Shown one piece after another: positions 20,098 through 38,424 of a DNA stretch of 64,000 bases. The translations under genes were made by a program, and so were the position numbers. The DNA lies in the NCBI RefSeq assembly GCF_021190955.1, contig NZ_JAIOAO010000006.1, positions 124,001-188,000 of the forward strand. The letters run 5' to 3'. This DNA comes from Parachryseolinea silvisoli (GTDB taxonomy: Bacteria > Bacteroidota > Bacteroidia > Cytophagales > Cyclobacteriaceae). The first letter of the stretch is position 1, and every line of letters begins with the position of its first letter. The notes under the pieces were generated by a model. The model had not been told where the DNA came from and searched no databases. It saw only the letters and a list, made by a program, of their open reading frames with translations.

Positions 20098-20103
20098 AGA
20101 CAA

Positions 20104-23319: not shown

Positions 23320-23333
23320 ATTATAAAGCCTTT

Positions 23334-24734
23334 TTATGGATTGATAGCATTCAGAAATACCGGCAGGTCGCCTTTAGCCGCCGCCACCATCAGCAGCGAT
23401 CGCCACGCGTTGCTATAAGCAATGGCTACATCGGCCTCCGCCCGGTTGAGTACGACCATGCTTTGCAGCAACGTCGGCAGGTCAGTCAGGCCACTGGCGT
23501 AACGGGCACTGGCCTGTTTATAGGCCTGGGTTGCAGCAGCGAGCTGTACAGGCGCGGTGCGCGCTTGCTCACGCGCTACCTCGTACTGCATCTCTGCTTC
23601 CTTTGCCTGTCGTTGTAATCGCAGCGCCTGCTCGTTATATACTTCGTGGTCGCGGTCGGCGCGATAGCGTTCACTCTTGTAGCGATGCCGTATTTGCGCA
23701 AAGTCGGTAAGGGTCCAACGTGTAGAGATGCCCACCAGGTAATTATACACCTGGTAGCGAGTACCACTGGAAAAGTCGGTGCGGTACTGATCGTCTGTAT
23801 TTGACACGCCGGAGCCACGCGCCCAGGCAGCACCCACCAACGAAATGGAGGGCAGAAAAGAACGGCCAATAGCCTTACTACGCGCCTGCGTTGTTTCCCA
23901 ACGGAGCGCTTGCAGCCGCAACGCGGGATGCCGCTGCCATGCCCGGACGGCAGTATCGACAGGTTGTGGCAATGCCGTATAAAATCGCATGCTGTCGATC
24001 GCAATGGAATCACCCAAGACACCCGTAAGCTCCAGCAGCCGCAGCTGTCGCGCCTGCTCGTTACGGTGACTTTCTAATAGTAACAGGTTCGCTTTAGCAT
24101 ACTCCGCTTCGGCTAACGCACTGTCAACTCCCGGACGCAGCCCCGACTGTACACCCGCGGAGACTACTTGCCGGAAGTTTTCCGCACGATCACGATTGGA
24201 CTGTTGAATATCCTCCAGCTTCTCCCCGATCAGCAAAAGCAAATAAGCATCTGCAACTTGCACACGATGTTGAAACAATTCGTTTTCGTACGCCGCCTGA
24301 CTCGCTGCCAGTGCTGTACGAGCAGTACCCACCGCGGTGGACACTTTTCCAAAGTTGACAATGTTCCACTCGAGCAACGCCGAGGTAAAGCTGCCAAAGG
24401 TGCCGTCATAAATATTATCCGCGCGAATTCCTCCCGACGGCGAAATAACGGTGCCGCCATTGGGATAAAAGGAGCCCGTCACGCTGTTGTTGGTAGAGTA
24501 GGTGTACTGGTGCTGCACCGACAACCGGGGAATATAGTCGCTGGTACTCGTCTTCACATCTTGCTCCGCACTGTGCACCTCGGCCTGACGAGCCTTTAAC
24601 GATGGATAATACTGTACGGCCTGGTCCAGCACCGCAGGCAGGCTCTGCTGTGCGTGGGTGGCATACGTACTGGCCAACAGGACCAGCACGAGCGTTAGCC
24701 TGGTAGTTCGACAATCGATCCGCTTTTGTTTCAT
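23334..24734 (-). CDS. TolC-family outer-membrane efflux channel
   Basis: A 466-residue protein: signal peptide (MKQKRIDCRTTRLTLVLVLLASTYATHAQ) and two outer-membrane efflux repeats rich in long helices (LPAVLDQAVQYYPSLKARQAEVHSAEQDVKTSTSDYIPRLS; AYKQASARYASGLTDLPTLLQSMVVLNRAEADVAIAYSNAWRSLL). The frame is open to 24797, but ATG 24734 starts the signal peptide. It is the first gene of the efflux operon. Direct repeats at 24760-24777 lie just upstream. Confidence 0.9.
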   Translation of the reverse strand: MKQKRIDCRTTRLTLVLVLLASTYATHAQQSLPAVLDQAVQYYPSLKARQAEVHSAEQDVKTSTSDYIPRLSVQHQYTYSTNNSVTGSFYPNGGTVISPSGGIRADNIYDGTFGSFTSALLEWNIVNFGKVSTAVGTARTALAASQAAYENELFQHRVQVADAYLLLLIGEKLEDIQQSNRDRAENFRQVVSAGVQSGLRPGVDSALAEAEYAKANLLLLESHRNEQARQLRLLELTGVLGDSIAIDSMRFYTALPQPVDTAVRAWQRHPALRLQALRWETTQARSKAIGRSFLPSISLVGAAWARGSGVSNTDDQYRTDFSSGTRYQVYNYLVGISTRWTLTDFAQIRHRYKSERYRADRDHEVYNEQALRLQRQAKEAEMQYEVAREQARTAPVQLAAATQAYKQASARYASGLTDLPTLLQSMVVLNRAEADVAIAYSNAWRSLLMVAAAKGDLPVFLNAINP

Positions 24735-24759
24735 GCCCACAATAGTACGGGGTCGATTC

Positions 24760-24777
24760 TGGAAACATTTTGGAAAC
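24760..24777. promoter_or_regulatory. direct repeat, candidate OmpR-type binding site
   Basis: TGGAAAC twice with an 11-base period, in the region between the divergent tolC-type gene and response regulator. OmpR-class regulators bind such direct repeats. An inverted partner (TTTCCAGAA) is near 24806. Confidence 0.5.
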
Positions 24778-24847
24778 GGAACTTCCCGGATTCCCATATT
24801 TTTCCAGAATTGAGGCCGTATATTCGATCACTTTTTCACAACAGGCT

Positions 24848-25525
24848 TTGAAAATACTCATCATTGAAGACGAGCGCGACCTGGCCGAAAGCATTGCGGC
24901 ACACCTGACAAAAGATGGTTTTGTCACCGAAACCGTATTCGATTTTCATTCCGCCGAAGAAAAGATTAACCTCTACACCTACGATTGCGTTGTCGTCGAT
25001 ATCAACCTGCCCGACGGCGTGGGGTTCGATCTCGTAGAGATTCTAAAAAAAATAAAGGCTTCCTCCGGCATCATTATCATCTCGGCGCGCAATGCCCTGG
25101 AAGACAAAATCCGCAGCCTCGAGATAGGCTCCGACGATTATCTCACCAAACCTTTTCACCTCTCGGAACTAACGGCCCGGGTAAAATCCATATTACGTCG
25201 CCGCAATTTCGGTGGCAGCAACGAAATACGCTTCCACGAGCTCCTGGTGAACTACACCGCGCGCAAAGTTTTTGTCAACCAAACGGAAGTACCCTTATCA
25301 AAAAAAGAATACGACCTGTTGTTATACTTCATGTCCAACATCGACGTTGCCCTTACAAAGCCTGCCATGGCTGAGCACCTCTGGGGTGACAGCATCGACA
25401 TGGCCGACTCATTCGACATGTTGTACTCACACATCAAGAACCTGCGCAAGAAACTCACCGACAAAGGGTGTAAAGACTATATACAATCTATCTACGGCAT
25501 CGGCTATAAATTCAGCGACACTTGA
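24848..25525 (+). CDS. OmpR-family response regulator
   Basis: A 225-residue regulator: receiver (acidic pair Glu7-Asp8, phosphoacceptor Asp51 in VVVDINLPDG, Lys101 in DDYLTKPF) and a winged-helix output domain (about 130-225: LLVNYTARKVFVNQTEVPLSKKEYDLLLYF...DMLYSHIKNLRKKL...IQSIYGIGYKF). The frame opens 26 codons upstream at ATG 24770, but that segment does not fit a receiver; TTG 24848 gives LKILIIEDE, the standard start. It overlaps the sensor kinase start by 4 bases (TTGA). Likely target: the divergent efflux operon. Confidence 0.9.
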   Translation: MKILIIEDERDLAESIAAHLTKDGFVTETVFDFHSAEEKINLYTYDCVVVDINLPDGVGFDLVEILKKIKASSGIIIISARNALEDKIRSLEIGSDDYLTKPFHLSELTARVKSILRRRNFGGSNEIRFHELLVNYTARKVFVNQTEVPLSKKEYDLLLYFMSNIDVALTKPAMAEHLWGDSIDMADSFDMLYSHIKNLRKKLTDKGCKDYIQSIYGIGYKFSDT

Positions 25526-26787
25526 AACTGTTCGATAGCACCAACCTCTACTACATTCTATTCGCCATCCTCACGTATATCATCGTTGGATTGGCGTTCT
25601 ACCTGGTTGTCGAACACGTCATCTACCAGGAGGTGGAAGACCGCCTCACGGTCGAACGCCGCGACTTCGAGAACTTTACAAAGACTCACGGCATGTGGGA
25701 CGAAAGCTGCTATTTCGTCGAAAACAAGATCGAGCTCGACACGGCCGGCAACCTGCCCGCGAACCATGCCGTATTCAAAGACACCCTGCTTTATAATCGC
25801 TATAGCAACGAGTACGTACCCTTTCGCGAATACAGCTTTATTACCACCATTGGCGCAACACCATACAAAGTCAGCATTCGCAAGTCACTGATCGAATCCA
25901 TCAAGTTGCTGAAATCCATTACCGGCACCATGCTGATTGTACTCAGCATTGGTCTGTTGCTATTATTTTTATTCCAACGACGTATCGCCCGCACCATCTG
26001 GGAACCCTTCTACGCCACGCTGGCGTCTGCTAAAGCCTTCGACCTGAACGAGGGCCGTGGGCTGGCCTTGCGCGAAGAAAAGATCTTCGAGTTCAACGAG
26101 CTCAACTCGGTCTTACGTAAAATGACGGACAAGATCGCCCGGGACTATACGAGCCTGAAAGAATTTACCGAAAACGCCGCCCACGAAATTCAAACCCCGC
26201 TGGCGCTGATCAACAGCCGCGTCGAAGAGCTCATCCAACAAAGCAACTTCTCCGACGAGCAAATGCGGTGGATCCAAAACATCCACGAATCCTCCATACG
26301 CCTGTCACGCCTGCACCAGGCGTTACTGTTGCTCTCCAAAATCGACAACGGCCAATTCTTCGAGCACACCGCCATCGACTTTCACGCGCGCGTAACCGCC
26401 AAGCTCCAGGAACTGGAAGAATTCATCGCACACAAATCACTAACCGTAACCGTCACCTCCGTGGCATCCTTCGAAGTAGAGATGAACCCCACCCTCGCCG
26501 ACATTCTCATCACCAACCTACTCACCAACGCCATTCGCCACAACGTACCCAACGGCCGCATCAACATCACTATTACGGGCACAACCTTCACGGTCGCCAA
26601 CACCGGTGCCCCCCTCACCATCGACCCTGACCGCCTCTTCGAACGCTTCAAAAAACAACACCAAAGCTCCGCCTCCCTCGGCCTGGGCCTCGCCATCGTC
26701 AAAAAGATCTGCGACAACTATCCCCTCGACATCCGATATCAGTACGACAACACCCTTCACACGCTGACCATCCACCAACGCACATAA
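25522..26787 (+). CDS. sensor histidine kinase
   Basis: A 421-residue membrane kinase: helix 1 (about 9-30), periplasmic sensor (about 31-135), helix 2 (about 137-152), a HAMP-like linker, DHp domain with phospho-His221 (ENAAHEIQTPLALI), N box (ILITNLLTNAIRHN) and G2 box (LGLGLAIVKKI). The D/F box region (VANTGAPLTIDPDRLFERFKKQH) is also present. TTG start overlaps the response regulator stop, so the two are co-translated. The sensor region contains a HGMWDESCYFVENKI segment and no domain I can name. Confidence 0.9.
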   Translation: MKLFDSTNLYYILFAILTYIIVGLAFYLVVEHVIYQEVEDRLTVERRDFENFTKTHGMWDESCYFVENKIELDTAGNLPANHAVFKDTLLYNRYSNEYVPFREYSFITTIGATPYKVSIRKSLIESIKLLKSITGTMLIVLSIGLLLLFLFQRRIARTIWEPFYATLASAKAFDLNEGRGLALREEKIFEFNELNSVLRKMTDKIARDYTSLKEFTENAAHEIQTPLALINSRVEELIQQSNFSDEQMRWIQNIHESSIRLSRLHQALLLLSKIDNGQFFEHTAIDFHARVTAKLQELEEFIAHKSLTVTVTSVASFEVEMNPTLADILITNLLTNAIRHNVPNGRINITITGTTFTVANTGAPLTIDPDRLFERFKKQHQSSASLGLGLAIVKKICDNYPLDIRYQYDNTLHTLTIHQRT

Positions 26788-27086
26788 TACAATTTTAAAG
26801 CACGCTGCCAACGCATCGTAGCGACCTGGCACAGCAACGCACACGCCAGATGTTTAGTATACTATACCTCCAATCGATTGCGTCCATTCTCTACTCAATA
26901 ACTCCTCTACAACAACATTTCCCCAATTTCACAAAACATCGTTCACGCCCGTGACCAAAAAAGCGACACCCGCATCCAACTTGTATACATCCGTATCATT
27001 CCACAAAATATAAATCACCAGTATTGAAACATTAAAAGTATTTCCCTATTTTAAATCATTATTGTCTTTTAATGTAATTGTGTACT

Positions 27087-27728
27087 ATGACCACCATGAA
27101 CCTTCTCATTATAGACGACCATTCTCTTTTTCGGAAAAGTCTCATTAATACCATCAAAAACAATCTTCCGTTTCAAAACATCTACGAAGCCTCGAACAGG
27201 CTACAGGCATTAGAGGTTTGCAAAAGTAAACTGGTGCACATTGTGTTGCTTAACATCAACATGCCGATCCTGGAAGGATTCGAAACGGCCAAAAGCCTGC
27301 TGCAACGCTCCATTGTCAGTCGTCCGTACGTCATTGTCCTGACGCTCTACAGAGAAGCATCCATTATATACCAGCTGCTGGAACTGGGCGTACACGGTTT
27401 CGTGAATAAAGATTGTGATTTGAAAGATCTCCTGGCCACAATCGAGAGCGTTGTGAAAGGAAACCTGTGCTATCCGCAAGAATACAACGACAAGCTCAAG
27501 AAAATGATCCACCAGGGCACACAGCCATCCCTGATGTTGTCCGCGCAGGAACGCAGCCTTATCCAGCTTATCGGACAAGGGAAAACAAACAAAGAGATCG
27601 CACAACTGGAAAACTGCTCTGTCCGCACCATCGAGTCAAAACGCCTCAAGCTTGAACGAAAGCTCCTGGTAAGGAACGCCGCCGAGCTGATCGACTATTC
27701 CTACAGAAACGGCATCCTGAGCCTCTAA
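27087..27728 (+). CDS. NarL/FixJ-type response regulator lacking the phosphoacceptor Asp
   Basis: A 213-residue protein with receiver (MNLLIIDDHSLFRKSL; Thr in VIVLTLYRE and Lys in GFVNKDCDLK are kept) and LuxR-type helix-turn-helix (about 145-210: LSAQERSLIQLIGQGKTNKEIAQLENCSVRTIESKRLKLERKL). The canonical phosphoacceptor position reads VLLNINMP instead of VLLDINMP (codon AAC), so Asp is Asn at residue 56. Phosphorylation in the usual way is unlikely. The TTG at 27078 also opens the frame; ATG 27087 or 27096 are the likely starts. No kinase is adjacent. It is convergent with the peptide-modification operon and its stop touches that operon's last gene. It may regulate it (inference). Confidence 0.85.
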   Translation: MTTMNLLIIDDHSLFRKSLINTIKNNLPFQNIYEASNRLQALEVCKSKLVHIVLLNINMPILEGFETAKSLLQRSIVSRPYVIVLTLYREASIIYQLLELGVHGFVNKDCDLKDLLATIESVVKGNLCYPQEYNDKLKKMIHQGTQPSLMLSAQERSLIQLIGQGKTNKEIAQLENCSVRTIESKRLKLERKLLVRNAAELIDYSYRNGILSL

Positions 27729-28643
27729 CTATTTCAGGCACCAGGCCTTTTCTTCAAGCTTCACCAGCTTCGTTAATAATTTACCCGGATGCCCACCAAA
27801 GAACGGTTGGTCCAATTGCCGCTGTGCCGCCCGTGTCAGGACATCAATATTGTTATCCTCGTAAAACATGATAATAGCCGTCAGCCAATCTTGTAATCGT
27901 TGCTCATCACTGGTGACCACAATAAAGTCGCGCAGGTATATGGCCAACGTATTAAAAAATGAAATACGCGCCGAACGCTGCGTTGCGTTATCTTCCTCGC
28001 CTACATAGGAACGCACTGTATCAAAGATCAACTGGCATAAGAGCGAAAATCGCATGTCCAGATAATCTTTGTTGTAGCTTCGGATGCCGGGCGCCTGCAC
28101 CGTGTCAAACAACGGCGACGCACCGGTCATCAGAAAACAGATATTGTCGAGCACAACCTTCATCCCTTCCTCCGGACGACTCATAGAAAAATATACCCGT
28201 GCCAGATTGTGATACTGCGACACGCGATCAAACACCAGGAAATCAAAACCCCGGGCTTCCAGCCGTTGGTTGTTCACGACCGTAGCCTGGATCAGGGCGA
28301 TGGCCGTATCCGTCTCTCCCCTTCGGTAATGAAATAACGACTTCGATCGGTTATAGACATTGTTTAGGAACGCCATCAACAACGGATGATCCGCACGGTT
28401 GATTGCCGCCATCAGGCGCTCGCCCTTACTGAAAAGGTGATTTGCCAGCAGATACCGCCCACGCGTCACTTCCGCGGCGGCGTCTGTAAAAAACTTTGAC
28501 AGGAGGTAAAGTGTCTGGCGCTCGGGGGTCGCGAGCACCTTGTTCAAGGCCCCGAGGTACATCTTCACGTAGGTATTGTTCTCCACTACTTCGCTTTTGC
28601 TCCAGCGAAAGCGCTCGTTCACTTTCTTGGCAGCTCGTCTCAT
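27729..28643 (-). CDS. helical repeat-like protein at the end of the peptide operon, unknown function
   Basis: A 304-residue cytosolic protein, predicted almost entirely alpha-helical. Segments such as ERQTLYLLSKFFTDAAAEVTRGRYLLANHLFSKGERLMAAI and DRVSQYHNLARVYFSMSRPEEGMKVVLDNICFL resemble TPR-like helical pairs, with AYF/YHNLARVYF spacing, but no clean repeat can be counted. I do not recognise the family. The frame opens further upstream, but ATG 28643 overlaps the stop of the previous gene by four bases (ATGA), giving a coupled start. As last gene of the operon it may be a scaffold, immunity or regulatory protein; nothing in the sequence decides this. Confidence 0.65.
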   Translation of the reverse strand: MRRAAKKVNERFRWSKSEVVENNTYVKMYLGALNKVLATPERQTLYLLSKFFTDAAAEVTRGRYLLANHLFSKGERLMAAINRADHPLLMAFLNNVYNRSKSLFHYRRGETDTAIALIQATVVNNQRLEARGFDFLVFDRVSQYHNLARVYFSMSRPEEGMKVVLDNICFLMTGASPLFDTVQAPGIRSYNKDYLDMRFSLLCQLIFDTVRSYVGEEDNATQRSARISFFNTLAIYLRDFIVVTSDEQRLQDWLTAIIMFYEDNNIDVLTRAAQRQLDQPFFGGHPGKLLTKLVKLEEKAWCLK

Positions 28644-29803
28644 AGTCGTCCTGGGGCTAATGCGTATTTGAGTCTTACCTTCTCGCCAAAGTTGTGCACA
28701 AACGCCGGGCACGAATCGTCGCCCGGGCCTTTATCAACCTGTCCACCACACATCGGTAAATAGGTGCAGGTAGAGCAGGCGATGGTATGCGCACGGAGCT
28801 GCTCCACAATTGTATTGTCGTACAAGCGTCGGTCCATGGTATTCGAGGGACCAGACAACAAATTTTCGACCGTATATTTCTGAATATGCGAAACTATACC
28901 GGCATCACTTTGTTTCGAGTACGTACACGAAGTGCCGGGCAGGAGATTGAGGTGCAGCTCCAACCTACGCAAGTATTGCAGCAACGTGTCCTCGCCGCCC
29001 GCGCCATAATCGTCCACCGCAGGATATATCCGCACGTTGCTATACGTGGCCAGTGCTTTTAACGGAGCAGCCAAATCTCGTAAGACCGACGCATCGTCCG
29101 TCCAGGGTATCCGAACGTCTGTCAATATCGTTTGCCATCCGGACTGCCCTACTAACGCTTGTGCTTGGGTTAAGGCATGTATTGTTTCGTTCATGTCTTC
29201 TCTCTGATCGAATGCAAAAACAATGCGCGCCACCTGCGGCAAGATCGTATCATACAGTTGAGCCTCCTGTATGTCCAGGATATCGTCAAACACCAGGCAG
29301 TATTGGACATCTATCGTATCGCCCGGGCTATGAGCGTCGACGAGATCCTCGACAAATTGCGCCACGCGCAGTGCATTGCCACGGCCCGCATCGGGCACGG
29401 TCACTTTTAACGTCTTACGAAAAGCCTGATCACTTGTATCGATCAGTCCCTGCAACAATCCTTTGAACGTATCGGCAAATGCGGGGTCGGTAGTCAACGT
29501 CAAATCGATGCACACTTCGGCCTCCTGGTTGCGGGTGTCGCCCGCCATGCACACTTTCCGCGCGATAATTTCCTCCAGCTCATCTTCGTCGGCGGGTATG
29601 ATCATCTCGTGAAACATGAGAATGTTAAAAAGATGATCGGGCAGTATCTCAAAGTTTCCTGCCTCCACCATAGTCCACACATAGTTGGTCAACGTTATAC
29701 CCATGCCCTTGCGCGTAGAAAATATCATCCGAAGGCTCTTGGGTGTATCCTCCTGATCTAACGGTTCGGATACCGTCATATATTTTGATAGTTTAAAGCT
29801 CAT
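28640..29803 (-). CDS. radical-SAM-like protein without the SAM iron-sulfur motif (pseudo-rSAM), SPASM-like tail
   Basis: A 387-residue protein whose first 85 residues align by eye with the maturase at 33446-34855 (MSFKLSKYMTVSEP / MKSLKLSYYTIASGP; LRMIFSTRKGMGITLTN / WLMLSTRSGRMVLVND; DEDELEEII / EENELESIV). At the place of CxxxCxxC it has only scattered Cys (85, 98), so it cannot hold the SAM-binding [4Fe-4S] cluster. The C-terminus keeps a SPASM-like Cys set (Cys343, 346, 352, 365; CSTCTYLPMCGG). Pseudo-rSAM proteins are known in some Bacteroidota peptide-maturation systems. It probably binds the precursor or partners the active maturase. Four-base overlaps on both sides couple it to P450 and the helical protein. 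Confidence 0.8.
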   Translation of the reverse strand: MSFKLSKYMTVSEPLDQEDTPKSLRMIFSTRKGMGITLTNYVWTMVEAGNFEILPDHLFNILMFHEMIIPADEDELEEIIARKVCMAGDTRNQEAEVCIDLTLTTDPAFADTFKGLLQGLIDTSDQAFRKTLKVTVPDAGRGNALRVAQFVEDLVDAHSPGDTIDVQYCLVFDDILDIQEAQLYDTILPQVARIVFAFDQREDMNETIHALTQAQALVGQSGWQTILTDVRIPWTDDASVLRDLAAPLKALATYSNVRIYPAVDDYGAGGEDTLLQYLRRLELHLNLLPGTSCTYSKQSDAGIVSHIQKYTVENLLSGPSNTMDRRLYDNTIVEQLRAHTIACSTCTYLPMCGGQVDKGPGDDSCPAFVHNFGEKVRLKYALAPGRL

Positions 29804-31020
29804 GCGGGTTGGAAGTCATGGTTCCACGCCATCGTCATGGGAAACGCCGACGGCCCGCGCAGCATATAGGGAATGCTTTTCCACTGGATCTTATTTCGCT
29901 CAATATTATACGCCTTTGTCGCGCTGATAAACTTGCCCAGGCCAACACCGGCTTGCAATTGCGCCAACCCGGCGCCAATACACCGGTATGGCCCTGCGCC
30001 AAAGCTGAGGTGCGCCGGCCGGCGTTGCAAGTCGATCTGGTCGGGATTCGAAAATATTTTAGGATCACGGTTAGCCGCCCCGACACACACCAGCAGCATG
30101 CTGCCCGAGGGGATTTTTGCTTCACCTACCTGCACACGCTCCTTGGCAAACATCAGCAGGAACTGCACCGGGCTGTCATACCGCAGCAGCTCATCCACAC
30201 CACTGCTGGCAAGACGCGGGTCTTTACGCAACGTATCTTGTACCGCTTCGTGCGATTGCAGGGCAATCACGGCGTTGCCCAGAAACTTCATCATGTTTTC
30301 ATGACCGGCATAAAACAGAAAGACAACCAGTGACAGAATAAACGATTCATCCTCGCCGTCAGTACAGGCTTCAATCAACGCGCTGCACAGGTCGTTATCG
30401 GGCCGTGCTCTTTTCTCCGCGACCAGCGCGCGCAGGAAGTTGATGAACGCCGATCCGTCACCTGACTCCGGGTGGTAGGTTATGTATTGGGAATAGCCGC
30501 CGCTTTGCAATAAGGCGCCGACGATATCCGAAAGCGCTTCGACCTTTTCTTTCGGCACACCGATGATCCGGCTAATGGTATCAAACGTAAAGGGATGTGC
30601 AAAGTCCGCCATAAACTCGATCTGATCCCTGCCCCGCAGCCGCTCCACCACCCGGCTGGCTTGCTGGTGCATGGCCTCTACTTCGATCTTCATATTCTTC
30701 GCGGCCAACGCATGCAGCACCTTCTTGCGATACGGGGTGTTGCTGTCCGGCGCATAGGCATAGAGCGTCTTCGACATCTGCCCCTGCTCGGAAAACATCA
30801 TCGACTGCGTCTGGGGGTCTTGTCCCCAATGCGAGATGTCCGGATGCTTGAGAATGGCCACGGCATCTTCATACTGCGTGATGATCCACTGCATGGGCGA
30901 GATGCGATACACCGGCGTACGCTCCCGTAACTGTTGATACGCCGGGTAGGGGTTGTCTACCGGAAACGCCATCGGTGGCGACTGTAACAAGGCCAGAATG
31001 TCGTCTTTATTCTTCGTCAT
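29800..31020 (-). CDS. cytochrome P450
   Basis: A 406-residue soluble bacterial P450. The heme-thiolate motif is LSFGAGPYRCIGAG (Cys347), the ExxR pair is in VDELLRYDSP, and the oxygen-binding I-helix reads FYAGHENMMKFLG (AGHEN in place of AGxxT, so the usual Thr is Asn). The substrate-recognition part contains TLYAYAPDSNTPYRKKVLHALAAKNM, the helix C region. Its redox partners are not encoded here. The stop overlaps the start of the pseudo-rSAM gene by four bases, and it follows the FtsX-type permease by 50 bases. In this setting the substrate is likely the modified peptide or its terpenoid part (inference). Confidence 0.93.
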   Translation of the reverse strand: MTKNKDDILALLQSPPMAFPVDNPYPAYQQLRERTPVYRISPMQWIITQYEDAVAILKHPDISHWGQDPQTQSMMFSEQGQMSKTLYAYAPDSNTPYRKKVLHALAAKNMKIEVEAMHQQASRVVERLRGRDQIEFMADFAHPFTFDTISRIIGVPKEKVEALSDIVGALLQSGGYSQYITYHPESGDGSAFINFLRALVAEKRARPDNDLCSALIEACTDGEDESFILSLVVFLFYAGHENMMKFLGNAVIALQSHEAVQDTLRKDPRLASSGVDELLRYDSPVQFLLMFAKERVQVGEAKIPSGSMLLVCVGAANRDPKIFSNPDQIDLQRRPAHLSFGAGPYRCIGAGLAQLQAGVGLGKFISATKAYNIERNKIQWKSIPYMLRGPSAFPMTMAWNHDFQPA

Positions 31021-31070
31021 AGGTGAACGGGTAGAAGGTTAGGGGTCGGGTGGCAAAATCGAGACGGAGC

Positions 31071-33431
31071 TTACTCGCTGCGCAGGGAGTGCACCGGGTT
31101 TTGTTTGGCCAGCTTGACAATCAGGAACGATACCGTGCCCAGGCAAATGAGCAGCATCAGTACGACCGCCACGAACGGGTATACTAACGTGATCGGTATA
31201 TGATCGCCATACACAACATCAAACAGCATCTTCGTCGAGAAAAGGCTGAGCGGAAAACTTATCGCCAGCGCAATGACTAATATCCAGATAAAAATACGTA
31301 CCACTTTCCTGACCAGCCGGCCCGTGCCCATGCCGAGCACCTTCATGATACTGTAATCTTTCAACCGGCTCATGACGTTAAAATATACCAGGCCAAAGAG
31401 TCCGAAGCACGCCAGTGTTACGGCCAGGAAGGCCGAGAAGAGAATCACTTTGCCATGCCCGGAGATCAATGCAAAGTATCCCTGAAAAGCCTCGTCCTGA
31501 TGATATCCACCGAAGGGAACCTCCGGCGATACTTCGTGCCACAGTGACCTGACATGAGTCAACACTTTTGCCGACGCGCCTTGCGCCACCCGGACTACCA
31601 CATAATGATAATACCGGTCCTCCAGCGCCAGCCGCAGCACCGTGGGCTCCACCCGCGTCTGAAAGTTGCCGGTATGAAAATCAGCCACGACGCCGGTAAC
31701 GTAATACGTCTCGTCCTCCATCTTGAGGGTATGATTTAAGGGATCGGGCCAATTCATCTTCCGCGCGAACGCTTCATTGATGATAACATTACGATGGCCC
31801 GCTTCCTGGTTCACGGCAAAAGAGCTGCCTTTCACTACGCGGACCCCCATCGTTTCCAGGTAGGTACTATCGACGTCAAGCAATAAAGACTTGACAGCAT
31901 CTCCTTCTACCTGCACACTCACATCCTGCACGTTATAGCCAATATGTTCCTGCGCGCTCGACAAACGCATCACATCCGGATGCTGCGGCAACGCCTTTAC
32001 AAAATGTTGATACGCACGCTCGTCGGCAGGTGCAACCACCAGCAGATCGCGGTGGTCATAGCCCCAGTCCTTGCTCTTTTGAAAGCGTTCGTTGGCTACA
32101 AAAATGATAGCCGCCACGATATAGAGGAATGATAGTTTAAATTGAAAGAACAATAAGAGCTTCGAGAAAAAGCTCTTCGTCCCCAGGCTCTGCCGGCCGG
32201 ACAAGATGGTGACCGGTTTGAAATGCGATATATAAAAAGCTGGATAGGCACCTGACAGCAGCGATGTAACGGCCAATAAGCCCAGGAAGAACAGCCACAA
32301 CGAGCCGTCGCCGATTTCAAACTCCAGCCCGATCTGAAATAAACTGTCAAATCCCGGCAGCAGTAAGAATCGCGCCAGAAAAATACCGACGATCAAGGCA
32401 AAGCAGTTCAATACAATATTCTCTACCATAAACTGCAGCATGATGCTGGTGCGCCGGCTGCCAATGACTTTGCGGATGCCAATTTCCTTGAGGCGGGTAG
32501 CAGCCGTGGCCGTGGCCGAGTTGATATAATTCAGACATGATAAGGTAATCAGCAATAGCCCCATTATACTCAAGGCGACTTTGCCGGATGGCGGCCCGTA
32601 ACCCTTGGCGATGTCGCCGCGAATGCGATAGCTCTCACGTGCCAGGGTGCTCAGTGCTTGAAAGCCATAGCGCTGAATGGGTGCATCGACATGCACGGCG
32701 TTGTAGGCCGTCACAGCCTCTTTTAATCCATCCGATAGCGTGAGAGCACTTGTACGAGCTTTTATAAACGTAGCATCGCACAAAGTCTTCCAGTCGTCGG
32801 GTGCGCCGCCGACCTTGTCCCAGGTGCTGTTGTTGATCAGCATGCTAAAGTCAAAGCTCCGCTTCTTTGGGAACGCATCGGCTACACCACCCACCACGGC
32901 CGACGCCTCATAGCCATTGTCAAACCGGAGCTTCACCACCTGGCCAATGGGGTTATCCTGACCAAAATACTTCTGCGACGTCTCTTCACTCAAAATAACC
33001 TGTGCAGGATCCTTTAGCGACAACGCACTCCCCCATTTCATGGAAAAGGTAAAGACATTAAAAAACGATGCGTCGGCGAAGGTCACCTGCTCGTACAGCG
33101 GCTCTTTGGACTCCACCTGTACGACAGCATTTCGTTGGTTCAGACGCACCATCTCTTCGACCTGCGAGAATTGATCTTTCAACGCCTTCCCTACCGGGAA
33201 CGACACGCGGCCATAGACATCGACGGACTGTTTACTTTCTTCCGTCTGTGTGACCAGGAAAATGCGGTCTGCATCGGTATGGAAATGATCGACGTTATAT
33301 TCGAAGTTGATAAAAATAAAAATAACAATGGCGCAGCCGATGGAAAGTGACAAGCCGAAAATACTAAAGACTGACAAGATCTTATTCTTGCGAATATTCC
33401 TCAACCCGAGTAGAATGAAGCTTCTGATCAT
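31071..33431 (-). CDS. FtsX/MacB-like ABC transporter permease
   Basis: A 786-residue inner-membrane protein: first helix (about 21-45 in ILSVFSIFGLSLSIGCAIVIFIFINFEYNVDHFH), a large periplasmic MacB core-like domain (about 46-270), three helices with FtsX signature (about 285-400; TAATRLKEIGIRKVIGSRRTSIMLQFMVENIVLN), a second periplasmic domain (about 430-660) and a final FtsX block (FFGLVYFNVMSRLKDYSIMKVLGMGTGRLVRKV). This double layout is the Bacteroidota-type permease common in export clusters. No ATPase partner is present in the operon, so one must come from elsewhere. Likely role: export of the product. Confidence 0.88.
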   Translation of the reverse strand: MIRSFILLGLRNIRKNKILSVFSIFGLSLSIGCAIVIFIFINFEYNVDHFHTDADRIFLVTQTEESKQSVDVYGRVSFPVGKALKDQFSQVEEMVRLNQRNAVVQVESKEPLYEQVTFADASFFNVFTFSMKWGSALSLKDPAQVILSEETSQKYFGQDNPIGQVVKLRFDNGYEASAVVGGVADAFPKKRSFDFSMLINNSTWDKVGGAPDDWKTLCDATFIKARTSALTLSDGLKEAVTAYNAVHVDAPIQRYGFQALSTLARESYRIRGDIAKGYGPPSGKVALSIMGLLLITLSCLNYINSATATAATRLKEIGIRKVIGSRRTSIMLQFMVENIVLNCFALIVGIFLARFLLLPGFDSLFQIGLEFEIGDGSLWLFFLGLLAVTSLLSGAYPAFYISHFKPVTILSGRQSLGTKSFFSKLLLFFQFKLSFLYIVAAIIFVANERFQKSKDWGYDHRDLLVVAPADERAYQHFVKALPQHPDVMRLSSAQEHIGYNVQDVSVQVEGDAVKSLLLDVDSTYLETMGVRVVKGSSFAVNQEAGHRNVIINEAFARKMNWPDPLNHTLKMEDETYYVTGVVADFHTGNFQTRVEPTVLRLALEDRYYHYVVVRVAQGASAKVLTHVRSLWHEVSPEVPFGGYHQDEAFQGYFALISGHGKVILFSAFLAVTLACFGLFGLVYFNVMSRLKDYSIMKVLGMGTGRLVRKVVRIFIWILVIALAISFPLSLFSTKMLFDVVYGDHIPITLVYPFVAVVLMLLICLGTVSFLIVKLAKQNPVHSLRSE

Positions 33432-33445
33432 AACCGTGACAATAT

Positions 33446-34855
33446 TTATTTATACCTAAAAAAGTCTTCTTCTTTCAATACAGCATCAAAGTTGCTCAAC
33501 GTGCTGGCCAATTGTTCGCCTGGCGTTGTCCGCAGCAAGTACCGGAACTGCATGTCTTTTAAAATACTATACTTCAACGGCGGGCAGGCCACATTATCCT
33601 CCACCCATGACTTGGGACACCCACCCCCGCACACCGGCAGCAGCCGGCAGGTGTGACACGGGTATTTATCCGTGTCGCGTACACTGGTGTACCAGTCATT
33701 GAAAGGCTTCTCTCCCGTTTTGGGCGTTGCCTCTCCTAATTTCCCCAATTTGTAACCTTTGTCGTTGTAATAATCCGCATAGGGTATCTCCGTGCAGTTG
33801 TAAATATTTCCATAGGCGTCGTATACTTCGCTTTCGCCGCCTGTCGCAATACAGACCATTTTGGTTCTGCCATATGCTCCGGAGTCAAACGGATACCCCA
33901 GCTTGATCTTGGCGATCTCCCACTTCATCCGCTTCATGGCAAACTGCTCTTTGGTCAACGAGGTCTTATGCGCCTCATTCCCGCCCCACGAATAAATCCC
34001 CACGAAGTATAAATTGGCAATCCGCGTGTGTAGTCCGTCTGATGCTATTTGCTGTATCAGTGGCTCTACTCCGGCTACGTTGTCATAGCTCACGTTACAC
34101 CGTATCGTTACCTTGCACGCAGCCCTGTCAAAGTCTGGTCGTAGCAAAATCCTCTTCAGGTTTTTGTAGATCACTTCAAACGATCCACCGCCGGCCTTCA
34201 GGTATCGCTGGCGGTTGTGGTGCTCCTCTATTCCATCCAACGTAACTTCCACACGGGTTACACCAAAATCTCTGACCAGCTCGTCAAAGATGTCGTCCTT
34301 TAAGCTCAGTCCATTCGTGACAACTTTGCCCGTTACCAGCACGCCCTCTGGCAGCACCTGGCGCAGCTTTTTATTAATGGCCCGCATTTGCGGCAAGCCC
34401 ATCAATGGCTCGGCGCCAAACCACCCGATGTGCAGGGTTTTATAACCACCCCGCATAAACTTATCATGTATCCTGTCGACCAGCGTGTCAATGAGCGGAT
34501 CGGCGATGTTATTCTTCGTATGCTGCTGACCACAATAGTGACACCCCAGCTGGCAATTTGCTGATGCCTGGATAACCTCGTACAACTGGCTTCGCTCATG
34601 ATCAATATAATCATTATTTTCCTGAACGATAGACTCCAGCTCATTTTCTTCCGCATCCACCAGGATATTGTTGGCTACCAGCTTCTCACGAATGGGTTCC
34701 GGAATATTATCGACCAGGTCGTTTTTTAGGAACTCCACACAAATATCATTCACCAGCACCATGCGCCCCGACCGTGTCGAAAGCATCAACCATTGGCCCG
34801 CCTCGTTCACTGGTCCCGAGGCAATTGTATAATACGACAGTTTAAGGCTTTTCAT
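33446..34855 (-). CDS. radical SAM/SPASM peptide maturase
   Basis: A 469-residue enzyme: N-terminal peptide-binding region (about 1-85), radical SAM core with Cys101-x3-Cys105-x2-Cys108 (ANCQLGCHYCGQQ), GWFGAEPLMG (the GGEP-type SAM motif) and VTLDGIEEHHNRQR; then a SPASM domain with auxiliary cluster Cys including CHTCRLLPVCGGGC (Cys400, 403, 409, 413) and Cys424. SPASM maturases cut a C-H bond of a ribosomal peptide to make thioether, C-C or other links. Its start overlaps the M50 gene end by 14 bases. A precursor peptide lies at the head of the operon. The bond formed cannot be read from sequence. Confidence 0.92.
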   Translation of the reverse strand: MKSLKLSYYTIASGPVNEAGQWLMLSTRSGRMVLVNDICVEFLKNDLVDNIPEPIREKLVANNILVDAEENELESIVQENNDYIDHERSQLYEVIQASANCQLGCHYCGQQHTKNNIADPLIDTLVDRIHDKFMRGGYKTLHIGWFGAEPLMGLPQMRAINKKLRQVLPEGVLVTGKVVTNGLSLKDDIFDELVRDFGVTRVEVTLDGIEEHHNRQRYLKAGGGSFEVIYKNLKRILLRPDFDRAACKVTIRCNVSYDNVAGVEPLIQQIASDGLHTRIANLYFVGIYSWGGNEAHKTSLTKEQFAMKRMKWEIAKIKLGYPFDSGAYGRTKMVCIATGGESEVYDAYGNIYNCTEIPYADYYNDKGYKLGKLGEATPKTGEKPFNDWYTSVRDTDKYPCHTCRLLPVCGGGCPKSWVEDNVACPPLKYSILKDMQFRYLLRTTPGEQLASTLSNFDAVLKEEDFFRYK

Positions 34856-36074
34856 GACGAGGAAAGTATTTAAGGAAGACCTTTTTGTAAACAGACTTGA
34901 TCAACAGATAATAAAACAATCCCGGTATGGCTAAGCTTACCACCGAATCTTTGAACCACGAAAAGTTTACAACGTCGGACCAGGTAATCAAATCCCGCAG
35001 GAAGAGATACAGGTTGTAGGGAAAATAGATCACGGATTTATAGTTGAACAGCACCATGTAAATCAGAAACAACACCAGGAAGCCAACACTCAACAAGCCA
35101 TATACTGCCAGGAAAATGGTATGACGTGTCGGCCGCCACCTGTTCTGCATCCCTGCAATACGTCCCAACATCAGCCGGGCCGACTCAATCGACCGCGACC
35201 GTAGATTGGCCACGGCCAGTGAATCGCTCAGGGCCCAGTAGCCATCGTAGCGTAAAAACGGATTGAGGTTGATCAGGACCGAAAGGGCAATGAGGTACGA
35301 GAGTGTAACAAACATCAACTGCGACGTAATCAAAAAGACAACGGCCAGGCAGGCGCAAATCAACACCTGGATATAAATACCCCCGAGGTCGACTATAATC
35401 CGCTCGTCTTTACGCAAGCGCCAGGCATCGGTCACGTCTGAATAAAATACCGGTGTAAATACATAAAACCCAAAACCGATCGCTCCACTTCGCGCGCCAA
35501 AGCGGTCGCACGCCGCCGCGTGCCCGAACTCGTGCAACAACAACCCGGAATAGTGTATCACCATAAACATCACCAGAAAGTTGGGATCAATGCTATGGTA
35601 TACTTCTTTCGGGTCGATCGACACCATAAATACACCAGTCAGTAGCGCTAGCGACAAGGCAAACGCTGTATAAAACACTTCTTTGTGGAACAATGCCAGG
35701 AAGAGCGGCGTGATTCTCCGAACCACGAAGAAAGGGATCAGCGTGATCTTAAACTTAATATAGCCATCGGTAACACGCAATCGTTCCTGCGAGTCGTCCC
35801 TCAAAATACCATAGCCGGAAAGTTGTTTCGTAAAGATGGTGATCGTATCCGTCACCGACAGCTTCACATCGCTTTTCTGGTTAAACGCAGCCGTGAGCTG
35901 TTCGATGTTTTTGATGCCGTCGATCTCGTCCAGTAACTCTTTGACAAAATGATTGACATTGAGCTTAATGGGCTTCTGTAAATCATCAATGCACAGTGTG
36001 TACGTATGCTGGTTAAACCGAACATACGAACAGTTCGGCACAAGCTGCGGAACGTAATACTCATCCACTCCCAT
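34842..36074 (-). CDS. PqqD-like RRE domain fused to M50 site-2-type membrane protease
   Basis: A 410-residue protein. Residues about 10-100 (SYVRFNQHTYTLCIDDLQKPIKLNVNHFVKELLDEIDGIKNIEQLTAAF...VTDTITIFTKQLSGYGIL) resemble the PqqD-like RiPP recognition element, which binds leader peptides. The rest has about six helices with the metalloprotease motif HEFGH (about 181-185) and a second zinc-ligand-like NPFLRYDGYWALSD. M50 proteases cleave within membranes and also occur in peptide-modification clusters. The start ATG 36074 overlaps the cyclase stop in TGATG (a GTG at 36077 also opens the frame). Leader cleavage or coupling of modification to export is likely (inference). Confidence 0.85.
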   Translation of the reverse strand: MGVDEYYVPQLVPNCSYVRFNQHTYTLCIDDLQKPIKLNVNHFVKELLDEIDGIKNIEQLTAAFNQKSDVKLSVTDTITIFTKQLSGYGILRDDSQERLRVTDGYIKFKITLIPFFVVRRITPLFLALFHKEVFYTAFALSLALLTGVFMVSIDPKEVYHSIDPNFLVMFMVIHYSGLLLHEFGHAAACDRFGARSGAIGFGFYVFTPVFYSDVTDAWRLRKDERIIVDLGGIYIQVLICACLAVVFLITSQLMFVTLSYLIALSVLINLNPFLRYDGYWALSDSLAVANLRSRSIESARLMLGRIAGMQNRWRPTRHTIFLAVYGLLSVGFLVLFLIYMVLFNYKSVIYFPYNLYLFLRDLITWSDVVNFSWFKDSVVSLAIPGLFYYLLIKSVYKKVFLKYFPRHEKP

Positions 36075-38074
36075 CACGCAGCGCTTAAGGAACTGTACCG
36101 GCTCAAGGCCTGCTGCGAAACAGCGGTCGTAAATAAGTGCGCAAACTCACCCGTGACAGTGTTGCCACCACCCTGCCGGTTGACTTTGAACGAGGTATTA
36201 TTTGTCGTCCACCGCACCACATCCGGATTGGGAATCGCCAGGAAAGTCGAGCCCTCGAATGCGCCGTTCGTATATTGATTTTGCAACATCCAATTCTTCA
36301 TGCTCTCCACCGGCTTGCGATAACGGTTGTAAAGCTCCTGCGAAGCACAACATGCGTCCAACACCAAAGCAGTATAAAACACGCTTTTCTGTTTCAACAC
36401 ATCGCATGAAAAACTTCCATCGCTATTCTGCTTTTTCAATAAGAAATCCAGCGATTGCAGGATCGCAGGATCGAGCTCGCCCTGCTCGGACACCATTCCC
36501 TGTACAATGTACGATGTCGGGTAAATACTGGATGTCCACCAGTACGGCTGCCAGGCACCATTCCGGGCACGCGTCTTCGTAAGATATTCTTTCAACGCCG
36601 TAAGCTCGGAGGCATACTCCTGCCGGTTGGGCAACTTGCTGAGAAAATAATACGCCAGCGCACTGACGCACACATGCGCGTGGATCCATCCTTTGACTTG
36701 ATTTTTTCCTTTTAAGCCGAGGTTGCTTACCAGCGAGTAGTGTTCTGAAGAATAGGTGCCAAAACCCCCTTCGCGCGTCTGGCCCTTCAGCCATTCTTTT
36801 AAATCGGCATCGATCGAATGCCCTGCCTGGCTTAGCGCCAACAGGGCGCAGGTCGATGAATCGTAATCGAACGTCCACTCTGTATTGTACCCCCACAAGT
36901 TTCGGTCTTGCTTGTTCTGTGCCAGGAAGCCCGCAGCTTTTATAAAATTATCAGAACGATTGTCGAGGTGTGCGGCGATAAAGCCGGTCGCCCACACGTT
37001 GCTCATGCCCTGCATGTTGGTCACTTCAAACCAGGAGCCGTCAGCATTCTGCATATTTGCAATGTACTCGCGTGCCACCCGAATGGAATCCTCCAATCCA
37101 AAAGAGGACAGTGTATAGGCGCTATTGACCCGATCTACATATTTATGAATACGATAGGCCTGTATATTTACCTTGAAATAATTGATGCGATTCCGTAGTG
37201 TTTCGATAATGCCGATGTATGGCTGCAGGTGGACATGATAGTCCTGTAAGACATCGATCGCAAGTTGATAATACTTTTTGGAAAGCACCAGCATCGCTTC
37301 TGCCGTCTCGGACGTAAACAGGTATTTCTCCAACATCTCCGGCGTGTGATCCTCCAGGCGCAGCTGGTGTTCCTTCATCCACTTATGCAGATACATATGA
37401 CAGATGTTATTCTTGCGGTGAACGAGGTCCTTTTTAAAGTCCTCGAGGTCGTCATGAATACAGCGGGCGATCGAGAAGTATTCGATGGACTGGATCAACA
37501 ACGCATGCAGCGCGGGGTTTTCTTTCCGGGCCTGATAGGCATCGGCGGCCACTTTTGAAAAAGCACACTTACCGATGGCCAGCTTGCAATAGCCGTCAAA
37601 CTCCATGTCGAGGTTATAATGCTTGTCCATCAGGATGCTGCCCAGGAACTCTTTGTTCCGGCGATCCCACAGCTCCCAAAACAATGGCTTCTTTCCAAAA
37701 TGGCGGGAGAGGATCTTCAAGGCCTCCTCATGATAAATGTGAGTTTTTAGGTGGACCATGCTGGCATCCGCCCCTTGCGGATTCTCGTCGTCCTTATCAA
37801 TAAGCCTGTCGACGCAGAGCAGATACTGGAAATATAAAAATCCCGAGAAGCAAAGCTCGTCCGCAAAAGCTTCGCTACGTTCGCCAAATACCTTTCGGAA
37901 TAACGAGGGATACAGAAGGTAAAACTCCGAATCAAAAAAATCCGGAGGAAAAACAAAGATCTTTAACCCGCCCGGCAACTGAATGTGATCGTCCAGGTAA
38001 TTATTAAAGGATTGCTTCAGCCGGTCGATGGTACCGGCGGAGTTCTTCAACCCTATCTTGCTTAAGCCGAGCAT
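36074..38074 (-). CDS. two-domain terpene-synthase-like/class II cyclase-like protein
   Basis: A 666-residue protein. The first about 310 residues form an all-helical polyprenyl-synthase-like domain with two acidic regions: DRLIDKDDE (from residue 89) and HDDLEDFKKDLVHRKNN (Asp208, Asp209), placed like the two Asp-rich motifs of class I enzymes. The second half is an alpha-toroid with squalene-hopene-cyclase-type repeats (MQNADGSWF, LWGYNTEW, KQNSDGSFS, NGAWQPYWWTSSIYPT). At the usual DxDDTA catalytic site it reads DYDSST (403-408): the middle Asp acid is kept, the next is Ser. The frame opens at 38188, but that would overlap the peptide gene; ATG 38074 fits the family start better. Active chemistry is not proven. 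Confidence 0.75.
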   Translation of the reverse strand: MLGLSKIGLKNSAGTIDRLKQSFNNYLDDHIQLPGGLKIFVFPPDFFDSEFYLLYPSLFRKVFGERSEAFADELCFSGFLYFQYLLCVDRLIDKDDENPQGADASMVHLKTHIYHEEALKILSRHFGKKPLFWELWDRRNKEFLGSILMDKHYNLDMEFDGYCKLAIGKCAFSKVAADAYQARKENPALHALLIQSIEYFSIARCIHDDLEDFKKDLVHRKNNICHMYLHKWMKEHQLRLEDHTPEMLEKYLFTSETAEAMLVLSKKYYQLAIDVLQDYHVHLQPYIGIIETLRNRINYFKVNIQAYRIHKYVDRVNSAYTLSSFGLEDSIRVAREYIANMQNADGSWFEVTNMQGMSNVWATGFIAAHLDNRSDNFIKAAGFLAQNKQDRNLWGYNTEWTFDYDSSTCALLALSQAGHSIDADLKEWLKGQTREGGFGTYSSEHYSLVSNLGLKGKNQVKGWIHAHVCVSALAYYFLSKLPNRQEYASELTALKEYLTKTRARNGAWQPYWWTSSIYPTSYIVQGMVSEQGELDPAILQSLDFLLKKQNSDGSFSCDVLKQKSVFYTALVLDACCASQELYNRYRKPVESMKNWMLQNQYTNGAFEGSTFLAIPNPDVVRWTTNNTSFKVNRQGGGNTVTGEFAHLFTTAVSQQALSRYSSLSAA

Positions 38075-38111
38075 AGGTGTATATGGGTTTAGGTGAATGA
38101 TGTCGTTTGGG

Positions 38112-38137
38112 AAAGGACTCTCTTGCGAGAGCCCTTT
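38112..38137 (-). terminator. stem-loop between precursor peptide and cyclase genes
   Basis: AAAGG, A-C mismatch, CTCTC, loop TTGC, GAGAG, CCTTT. No U-tract follows on the minus strand, so it more likely protects the peptide mRNA or partly attenuates, allowing more peptide than enzyme (inference). Confidence 0.5.
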
Positions 38138-38151
38138 CTGAAATGGTAGAA

Positions 38152-38337
38152 TTACTTCGTGCTGCAACCAGCGTCGCCAACCCAGCAAACGCCGTTGCTG
38201 CCGGCAGCAGCGTCGATGCTGTCTGTCAGCGCAGTCATTTCGAGACGATCTTCAAGTTCTTCAACTTTGAAGAGTTCCAGTTTTTCGGCCTCAGAAAGAT
38301 CCTCGATCTTTTTGAGAAGCGGTTTTTGATTCTCCAT
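38152..38337 (-). CDS. candidate RiPP precursor peptide
   Basis: A 61-residue peptide at the head of the operon. It has a charged helical leader (MENQKPLLKKIEDLSEAEKL, ELFKVEELEDRLEMTALTD) and a small-residue C-terminal part (IDAAAGSNGVCWVGDAGCST) with Cys51 and Cys58, Trp52, and a Lys end. No signal peptide or membrane segment. The leader-core shape, position before a SPASM maturase, PqqD-like protease and permease, and a strong hairpin just after the gene support the precursor role. An AAAG stretch (43-46) could be a cleavage region. ATG 38337 follows a 15-base AT-rich gap without an obvious Shine-Dalgarno. Confidence 0.7.
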   Translation of the reverse strand: MENQKPLLKKIEDLSEAEKLELFKVEELEDRLEMTALTDSIDAAAGSNGVCWVGDAGCSTK

Positions 38338-38424
38338 TATTAATTAGGGGTTTATCTCAACAATTTTTGCATTAAACAGTACATACGTAAACACCCTAAC
38401 GATCTAATCATACATCTATCCCAC

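Follow-up and report, generated by a model that had tools for sequence, protein, structure and literature searches.

The operon described here lies on the minus strand of a 64,000-nucleotide stretch of Parachryseolinea silvisoli contig NZ_JAIOAO010000006.1 (from a genome of 7.95 Mb; the whole stretch, whose numbering is used for all its positions, is called the window). It comprises eight genes, A to H, and their sequences are best read as encoding a radical-modified, P450-oxidised peptide that would carry a polycyclic isoprenoid, two chemistries of ribosomally synthesised and post-translationally modified peptides (RiPPs) being merged on one short core. We observed the catalytic motifs of the enzymes, a recurring unit of precursor peptide, two-domain maturase (B) and M50 protease, the linkage of this unit with the radical S-adenosylmethionine (SAM) protein D and the P450 F in a second lineage, and joint variation of the motifs. 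An original prediction, made from the letters of the window, had proposed a peptide-isoprenoid hybrid from a combination of genes not yet described; the hybrid is well supported by the recurring peptide, the presence of M50 at 28 of the 29 related loci, the motifs of B and the gene order of a second locus, L036, while the claim of an undescribed combination falls. All eight open reading frames (ORFs) that had been placed between 38337 and 27729 were located there, and they and their internal features are as follows.

38152..38337, minus strand: A, precursor peptide of 61 amino acids (ORF; homologue in L036; leader family)
38236..38271, minus strand: leader motif of A, F23 to M34 (leader-motif peptides in 26 of 29 related loci)
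38182..38196, minus strand: NxxCW motif in the core of A, N48 to W52 (also in L036, as NKICW)
38111..38138, minus strand: hairpin between A and B with a 12-bp stem and a 4-nt loop (folding energy)
36074..38188, minus strand: B, two-domain maturase with a trans-prenyl-synthase-like N domain and an MstE-like C domain (start TTG at 38188 or ATG at 38074)
37796..37810, minus strand: first Asp-rich motif of B, D127-x3-D131 (in the window and all 30 related rows)
37427..37462, minus strand: second Asp-rich motif of B, D246-D247-x2-D250-x3-D254, with C243 before it (alignment of related rows)
36860..36868, minus strand: class II acid motif of B, D441-x-D443 (D443 aligned to D109 of MstE)
34842..36077, minus strand: C, M50 intramembrane metalloprotease with a conserved N-terminal region (HEFGH at 182-186; NPFLRYDGYW at 272-281)
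33446..34855, minus strand: D, radical SAM/SPASM peptide maturase (CX3CX2C; Pfam and NCBIfam; 41% identity in L036)
31071..33431, minus strand: E, MacB/FtsX-type permease, ADOP/DarB-like (Pfam and NCBIfam)
29800..31020, minus strand: F, cytochrome P450 (Pfam; FGAGPYRCIG; 45% identity in L036)
28640..29803, minus strand: G, radical-SAM-like protein without CX3CX2C (pseudo-radical SAM), with a SPASM-like C terminus (weak NCBIfam matches)
27729..28712, minus strand: H, helical protein with no role assigned (relatives adjoin D-type radical SAM genes in L036, L068 and L069)

The case for a peptide product starts with A, in which the leader motif reads FKVEELEDRLEM and the core includes AAAGSNGVCWVGDAGCSTK. 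A has no family match in Pfam or NCBIfam, and no model of either library reached its cut-off when A was scanned together with ten relatives; short ORFs near B and C share the leader consensus F-x-V-E-E-L-E-x-R-L-E-[MF]. A motif model trained on 14 peptides picked by eye or by pattern beside B (the leader block of L046 is misregistered in it) recovered further peptides in loci outside its training set, and across 176 kb lying apart from B and C its best match reached an E-value of only 1.8. Altogether 40 leader-motif peptides with variable cores were parsed, and relatives of the short peptide predicted at the operon head recur next to B and M50 beyond chance; the features by which a RiPP cluster is recognised, a short precursor gene with conserved leader and variable core adjoining maturases, are thus present. 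Thirty-nine of the 40 parsed peptides have a Trp after the leader: in 37 it follows by two to six residues, in L049 by 10 and in L036 by 19, the distance in the window being 18. The sole parsed peptide lacking Trp comes from L042, whose N domain has no cyclase, and in L060, where the cyclase domain is likewise missing, a weak candidate peptide has a Trp-free core. These N-domain-only relatives (L042, 3271-4221; L060, 7456-8274) are accompanied by an M50 gene, their candidate cores hold Tyr, Phe or Cys, and they are possibly prenyltransferases for another acceptor. Elsewhere a single B gene stands beside an array of short precursors that share their leader and differ in their cores (six in L039, 7318-8363; four in L062, 8499-9147).

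B or its profile was searched against overlapping draws of genomes, in which some matches are to the cyclase domain alone, and was matched in 8 of 295 genomes of the window's family (its own included), 5/395 of the class and 11/395 of the phylum, as well as in 9/199 genomes of the family and 6/121 of the genus of G350, the genome that holds L036; within the window's own genus, only its own genome among seven had a match. A scan of genome contigs gave six loci, two of which repeat L018 and L017, while no relative of B was confirmed in viral contigs and none was found in plasmids. The analysed set consists of 29 loci with the N domain (30 related rows, mostly Bacteroidota), and its counts omit L047, L048, the loci with a cyclase domain only (L038, L051, L052, L055 and L057), a fragment (L059), L044 and L045 (duplicates of L018 and L017), and the radical SAM locus L074; three short rows were removed from the tree of B. 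The M50 gene in 28 of these 29 loci is always on the strand of B (28/28) and overlaps B or lies at most 10 nt from it in 23 of 28. In L034, the lone locus without M50, B is interrupted by a stop and the contig ends about 1.5 kb away. Seven of the loci (L017, L018, L020, L021, L022, L035 and L046) have a protein of about 390-405 amino acids beside B/M50, which has no counterpart in the window operon and begins with a carboxypeptidase-regulatory-like domain (by Pfam in L017, L020, L035 and L046, by eye in the others). More distant relatives of B in L037, L040, L041, L043 and L049 (the last on a contig labelled Blastocatellia) occur with M50 and another radical SAM protein, with cores such as KPWICG and APWICV.

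B itself had been predicted to join a terpene-synthase-like domain to one resembling a class II cyclase, and catalytic motifs are present in both. The C-terminal domain is of squalene-hopene-cyclase type (over the Pfam cut-off) and is nearest to MstE both by sequence (E 4e-14 with the single sequence, 2e-49 with a profile) and by fold (Foldseek E 1.3e-9, template-modelling (TM) score 0.71 on the target). Its D443 pairs with D109 of MstE, and PDB entry 6sbe, MstE D109N, has its Asn exactly there, so the general acid of class II cyclases is present in B; D441-x-D443 is invariant in a 10-row alignment, and B thus has the catalytic Asp of the DxD(D) motif that marks an MstE-like class II cyclase. 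The full DxDD form occurs in L037, L040, L041, L043, L039, L056, L058 and one gene of L062. For the N domain, Pfam polyprenyl_synt was matched in five of eight members (best E 0.0011), the window protein itself giving no match to it, and a 23-row profile matched a PDB polyprenyl synthetase at E 4.3e-5. By Foldseek the domain resembles polyprenyl synthases (TM up to 0.74) and Ord1 (TM 0.64-0.70, E 6e-4 to 4e-3), which the available text of PMC13290415 describes as a prenyltransferase of free tryptophan. The acidic residues D127, D131, D246, D247, D250 and D254 are kept in 31 of 31 rows, window included. No Pfam or NCBIfam model spans the fusion as a whole.

A second copy of most of the set lies in L036, from the same class as the window but a different order. 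The original prediction had proposed, as a check, to look for co-occurrence of the gene set in the same order, and here the order A-B-C-D-F-G-H is kept, with the FtsX gene absent and G and H partial. By tblastn, A, B, C, D and F are 40-45% identical to their counterparts (A at 45%, E 8e-13, the alignment extending through the stop of the shorter L036 peptide); the match to G covers residues 1-75 only, pieces of H lie in two overlapping frames, and nothing in the L036 stretch matches E. The two B proteins are sisters with support of 100/100, both cores contain N-x-x-C-W, and the two P450s have YRCIG in common.

The remaining enzymes fit their predicted classes to varying degrees. C had been taken for a PqqD-like domain joined to an M50 protease; the M50 part holds, by HExxH and by RiPP-type M50 models, and the PqqD part does not, since no Pfam PqqD model matched at E 0.1. 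H182, E183, H186 and D278 are invariant in 8 of 8 sequences, HExxH and the C-terminal Asp motif that define M50 proteases both being present; the scores stay below the cut-offs, however, for the daptide protease NF041824 (E 6.5e-45, 153.9 bits against a curated 300), the YydH/LiaK protease NF058609 (E 9.5e-18, 64.7 bits, also under its curated cut-off) and Pfam PF02163 (E 0.025, 14.4 bits against 27.2). D is the radical SAM/SPASM maturase that it was said to be, with CQLGCHYC and with PF04055 (40.9 bits, cut-off 29.5) and SPASM TIGR04085 (44 bits, cut-off 27) over threshold; its nearest NCBIfam model, TIGR04463, scores 145.3 bits, short of the curated equivalog cut-off of 525. The FtsX permease E (MacB/FtsX above the Pfam cut-off) and the P450 F (60.5 bits, cut-off 22.8) were likewise correctly named; the operon holds no ATPase gene for E, and FGAGPYRCIG in F is presumably the heme-Cys motif of the P450. 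G does lack CX3CX2C, as expected of a pseudo-radical SAM protein, and the libraries offer only weak NCBIfam matches (E 0.003-0.04) in place of confirmation. H, described as helical, is largely so in a low-confidence model (predicted local distance difference test (pLDDT) 40.4, modelled alone) and matches no Pfam or NCBIfam family beyond chance level.

From these observations we consider it probable that B prenylates the Trp of NxxCW and cyclises the chain, that D modifies the Asn/Cys part, that F oxidises, that G and H assist and that C cuts the product. The hairpin after A (minimum free energy -22.6 kcal/mol, z -3.6, in one stretch and -21.0 kcal/mol, z -4.8, in another) is probably a terminator or attenuator through which A would be produced in excess of the enzymes, and the L036 precursor also has a 3' hairpin with a U run (-19.4, z -3.65). 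The leader FxVEELExRLEM would recruit the enzymes. The N domain of B would transfer a prenyl chain, C10-C20 by analogy with the maturase ChrPC, from its diphosphate to the Trp, and the C domain would protonate and cyclise the attached chain with D443 as acid; the genome has two polyprenyl-synthase genes, so a supply of prenyl donor is plausible. D would act on the N-x-x-C part, most likely by linking the sulphur of Cys to a nearby residue, F would oxidise peptide or terpene, and G and H would probably position the substrate. Prenylated proteins are cut by membrane proteases, and by analogy the intramembrane protease C would cut a lipid-anchored product, which might leave through E or through pumps encoded elsewhere. 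In this scheme we infer the acceptor residue, the chain length, the sequence in which the steps follow, the reactions of the radical SAM enzyme and the P450, the timing of proteolysis and any bioactivity. A more specific version, which we hold only tentatively, would have one NxxCW motif receive three chemistries, namely a radical cross-link at Asn/Cys, an isoprenoid at Trp (or at another residue or one already modified) that is polycyclised, and P450 oxidation, before release by the protease; if true, it would describe a triply modified class of RiPP-meroterpenoids born from the merger of two RiPP systems.

The alternative that survives best concerns the acceptor. The position three residues ahead of the second Asp-rich motif is Cys in the window (C243) and L036 but Gln in the other 29 of the 30 related rows; the window and L036 are also the two loci with NxxCW and the radical SAM and P450 set. 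The Gln is conserved in Trp prenyltransferases resembling trans-isoprenyl diphosphate synthases (trans-IDS) and in Ord1, and has been proposed to contact the indole (available text of PMC13290415); because a residue proposed to recognise Trp is thus replaced, the acceptor may be other than plain Trp. A subtype of B with Cys243 could then prenylate Cys51 or a radical-modified residue of NxxCW, and the unusual placing of the core, 18-19 residues from the leader, points the same way. We nevertheless regard this as rather unlikely, given that Trp is retained in both cores and that, according to the same text, every characterised trans-IDS-like prenyltransferase targets Trp.

The reaction of D is the next point at issue. 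When its profile was searched at E 1e-50, 8 of 336 genomes of G350's order were matched, and in the stretches fetched from the seven besides G350 neither B nor F was present. The radical SAM proteins of L068, L069 and L071-L073 are of the same subfamily as D (phmmer E 5e-80 to 3e-108), and L064 has B (with Gln), M50 and a D-type radical SAM gene with no P450. The pattern N-x(1,2)-C occurs in all nine D-type loci (17 of 21 peptides, L064 having it in one of three), a count reached by 0 of 1000 shuffles that ignore kinship among the peptides; the precursors and core boundaries of L068, L069 and L071-L073 were picked by eye. Among loci with B, it occurs in 3 of 10 without radical SAM (3/17 Cys peptides), a group that includes L042 and L060 with their B lacking the cyclase domain, and in one of five with another radical SAM protein. 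These numbers, together with CW, which is present at 5 of 9 D-type loci and absent from all 15 B loci lacking a D-type radical SAM, are what would be expected had a D-type radical SAM system merged with a prenyl-cyclase/M50 system on one core, and are only suggestive, as the pattern had been seen beforehand, many peptides are near-copies and L074 stands outside the count. The CW counts, and the presence of cyclophane-forming radical SAM/SPASM models among the weaker matches of D, could also mean that D forms a carbon-carbon cyclophane at Trp instead of a sulphur link at Cys. This we judge unlikely: N-x(1,2)-C is found in all nine loci against five for CW, and the best NCBIfam matches of D are TIGR04463, the geopeptide and the Cys-every-fifth maturases, with the PapB ranthipeptide maturase further down. 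In L070 (5574-9728), M50 and a D-type radical SAM gene accompany three weakly scoring leader-motif peptides with NYCC cores, no Trp and no B; an association of the leader motif with M50 may thus not depend on the cyclase.

Could two independent RiPP pathways simply adjoin, one of A, B and C and the other of D, F, G and H, with a peptide of its own that escaped detection or has been lost? D-type radical SAM genes do occur without B: those of L068 and L069 have an H relative beside them, while none is detectable in L071-L073. A peptidase-containing ATP-binding cassette (ABC) exporter is recognised by family in L068, with similar ORFs by eye in other D-type loci, and short genes with double-Gly-like leaders and N-x-C-W-type cores lie in L072 (10177-11466) and L073 (7352-8655), in tandem in both, and in L071 (8746-9024); beside their D-type radical SAM gene and exporter-like ORF, these apparently form a separate RiPP family. 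Two pathways in the window are nonetheless improbable: A bears both signatures, the leader motif of B/M50 loci and NxxCW, several genes of the operon overlap, B, C, D and F are contiguous in L036 with one detected peptide, and L064 unites B, M50 and a D-type radical SAM. Least credible is that B yields a free terpene or diphosphate beside a separate peptide product, the genes being merely co-located, for although the five cyclase-only loci have no M50 gene (0/5) and just one weak, unlikely match to the leader model (E 0.19, in L038, with none in the other four), the form bearing the N domain has leader-motif peptides in 26 of 29 loci with M50 almost throughout, and in the fold comparison the diphosphate-forming cyclases rank below MstE, a binder of prenylated dihydroxybenzoates by its PDB titles.

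Several observations weigh against the preferred reading of a prenylated and cyclised Trp within a radical-modified core. Apart from the Cys for Gln in B, the Trp of the window and L036 lies far outside the usual distance of two to six residues from the leader. D occurs together with F in only two loci, and a profile of F, searched at E 1e-70 in 241 genomes of the order, found the window's own genome alone. In L036, H is split between frames, G is short and FtsX is missing. The model of B is moderate (pLDDT 70.9, predicted TM score 0.54). The leader model found nothing in L013 and L050, both on short contigs, and its match in L060 could not be parsed; 13 of the 40 parsed peptides had served in its training, and a looser scale adds a few chance-like, unparsed matches (L021, L022, L054 and L071). 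To these may be added that the N-x-C pattern was spotted before it was counted, in peptides many of which are near-copies.

Within the operon, start/stop overlaps are present for B/C, C/D, F/G and G/H, short gaps separate D/E and E/F, and A overlaps B only with the TTG start at 38188, the ATG at 38074 abolishing the overlap and placing the strong hairpin in the space between the two genes. The upstream neighbours, epimerase-like and DUF1611 genes, are provisionally taken not to be part of the operon. On its other side, a LuxR-type response regulator (27078-27728, plus strand) adjoins the 3' end, and beyond it are a two-component pair (24770-26787, plus strand) and, divergent from the pair, a resistance-nodulation-division (RND) efflux set of HlyD, AcrB-type and outer membrane efflux proteins (18970-24797, minus strand); all of these may serve the export or regulation of the operon. 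PADLOC gave only a weak viperin match for D, and a role in defence was set aside.

The unit built around B matches the ChrPC-type maturases, so that the pairing of a RiPP with a terpene cyclase, which the original prediction believed undescribed, has been known since 2024. ChrPC and NctPC are fusions of a prenyltransferase with an MstE-like cyclase that act on peptide Trp (Hubrich et al. 2024, as presented in the available text of PMC13290415), and RiPPs with polycyclic isoprenoids are credited to the same work in what was available of PMC13290415 and PMC12715784. A literature search, with most subscription papers outside its scope, found no paper announcing a RiPP-terpene set with radical SAM, P450 and pseudo-radical SAM genes; the ChrPC cluster may already hold some of these partners. 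On sequence grounds, what appears new is the extension of the peptide-polycyclic-isoprenoid class reported in 2024 to a form with radical SAM and P450 genes. More members could be sought with the signature of an FxVEELExRLE[MF] leader, a fused prenyltransferase-cyclase and M50, in Bacteroidota and beyond (at least one contig is labelled Blastocatellia), and the Gln-to-Cys residue offers a single site at which an effect on acceptor choice can be probed directly.

Set against these known systems, the likeness to ChrPC and NctPC, compared by the available description only, lies in the P domain (trans-IDS-like in ChrPC, as in B) fused to an MstE-like C domain and in the Trp of a ribosomal precursor; by the same description the window differs in having Cys for the Gln upstream of the second Asp-rich motif, a Trp far from the leader within NxxCW, and radical SAM, P450 and pseudo-radical SAM partners. 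ComQ/ComX and PalQ also pair a trans-IDS-like enzyme with a small Trp-bearing precursor, but the available text of PMC13290415 describes no fused cyclase domain for them and places them in Bacillus and Paenibacillus hosts. MstE resembles B in fold, acid motif and aligned GW and YWW residues, but is free-standing and, from PDB titles, has geranylgeranyl dihydroxybenzoate rather than a peptide as substrate. For C, the daptide and YydH/LiaK proteases are the best family matches, at scores under their curated cut-offs. Finally, the TIGR04463-like maturases of L068, L069 and L071-L073 share with the window the radical SAM subfamily of D, N-x(1,2)-C cores and, in L068 and L069, an H relative; unlike the window, these loci combine leaders that by eye are double-Gly-like with an ABC exporter of peptidase type (family assigned in L068), and the stretches fetched contain no B, M50 or P450.

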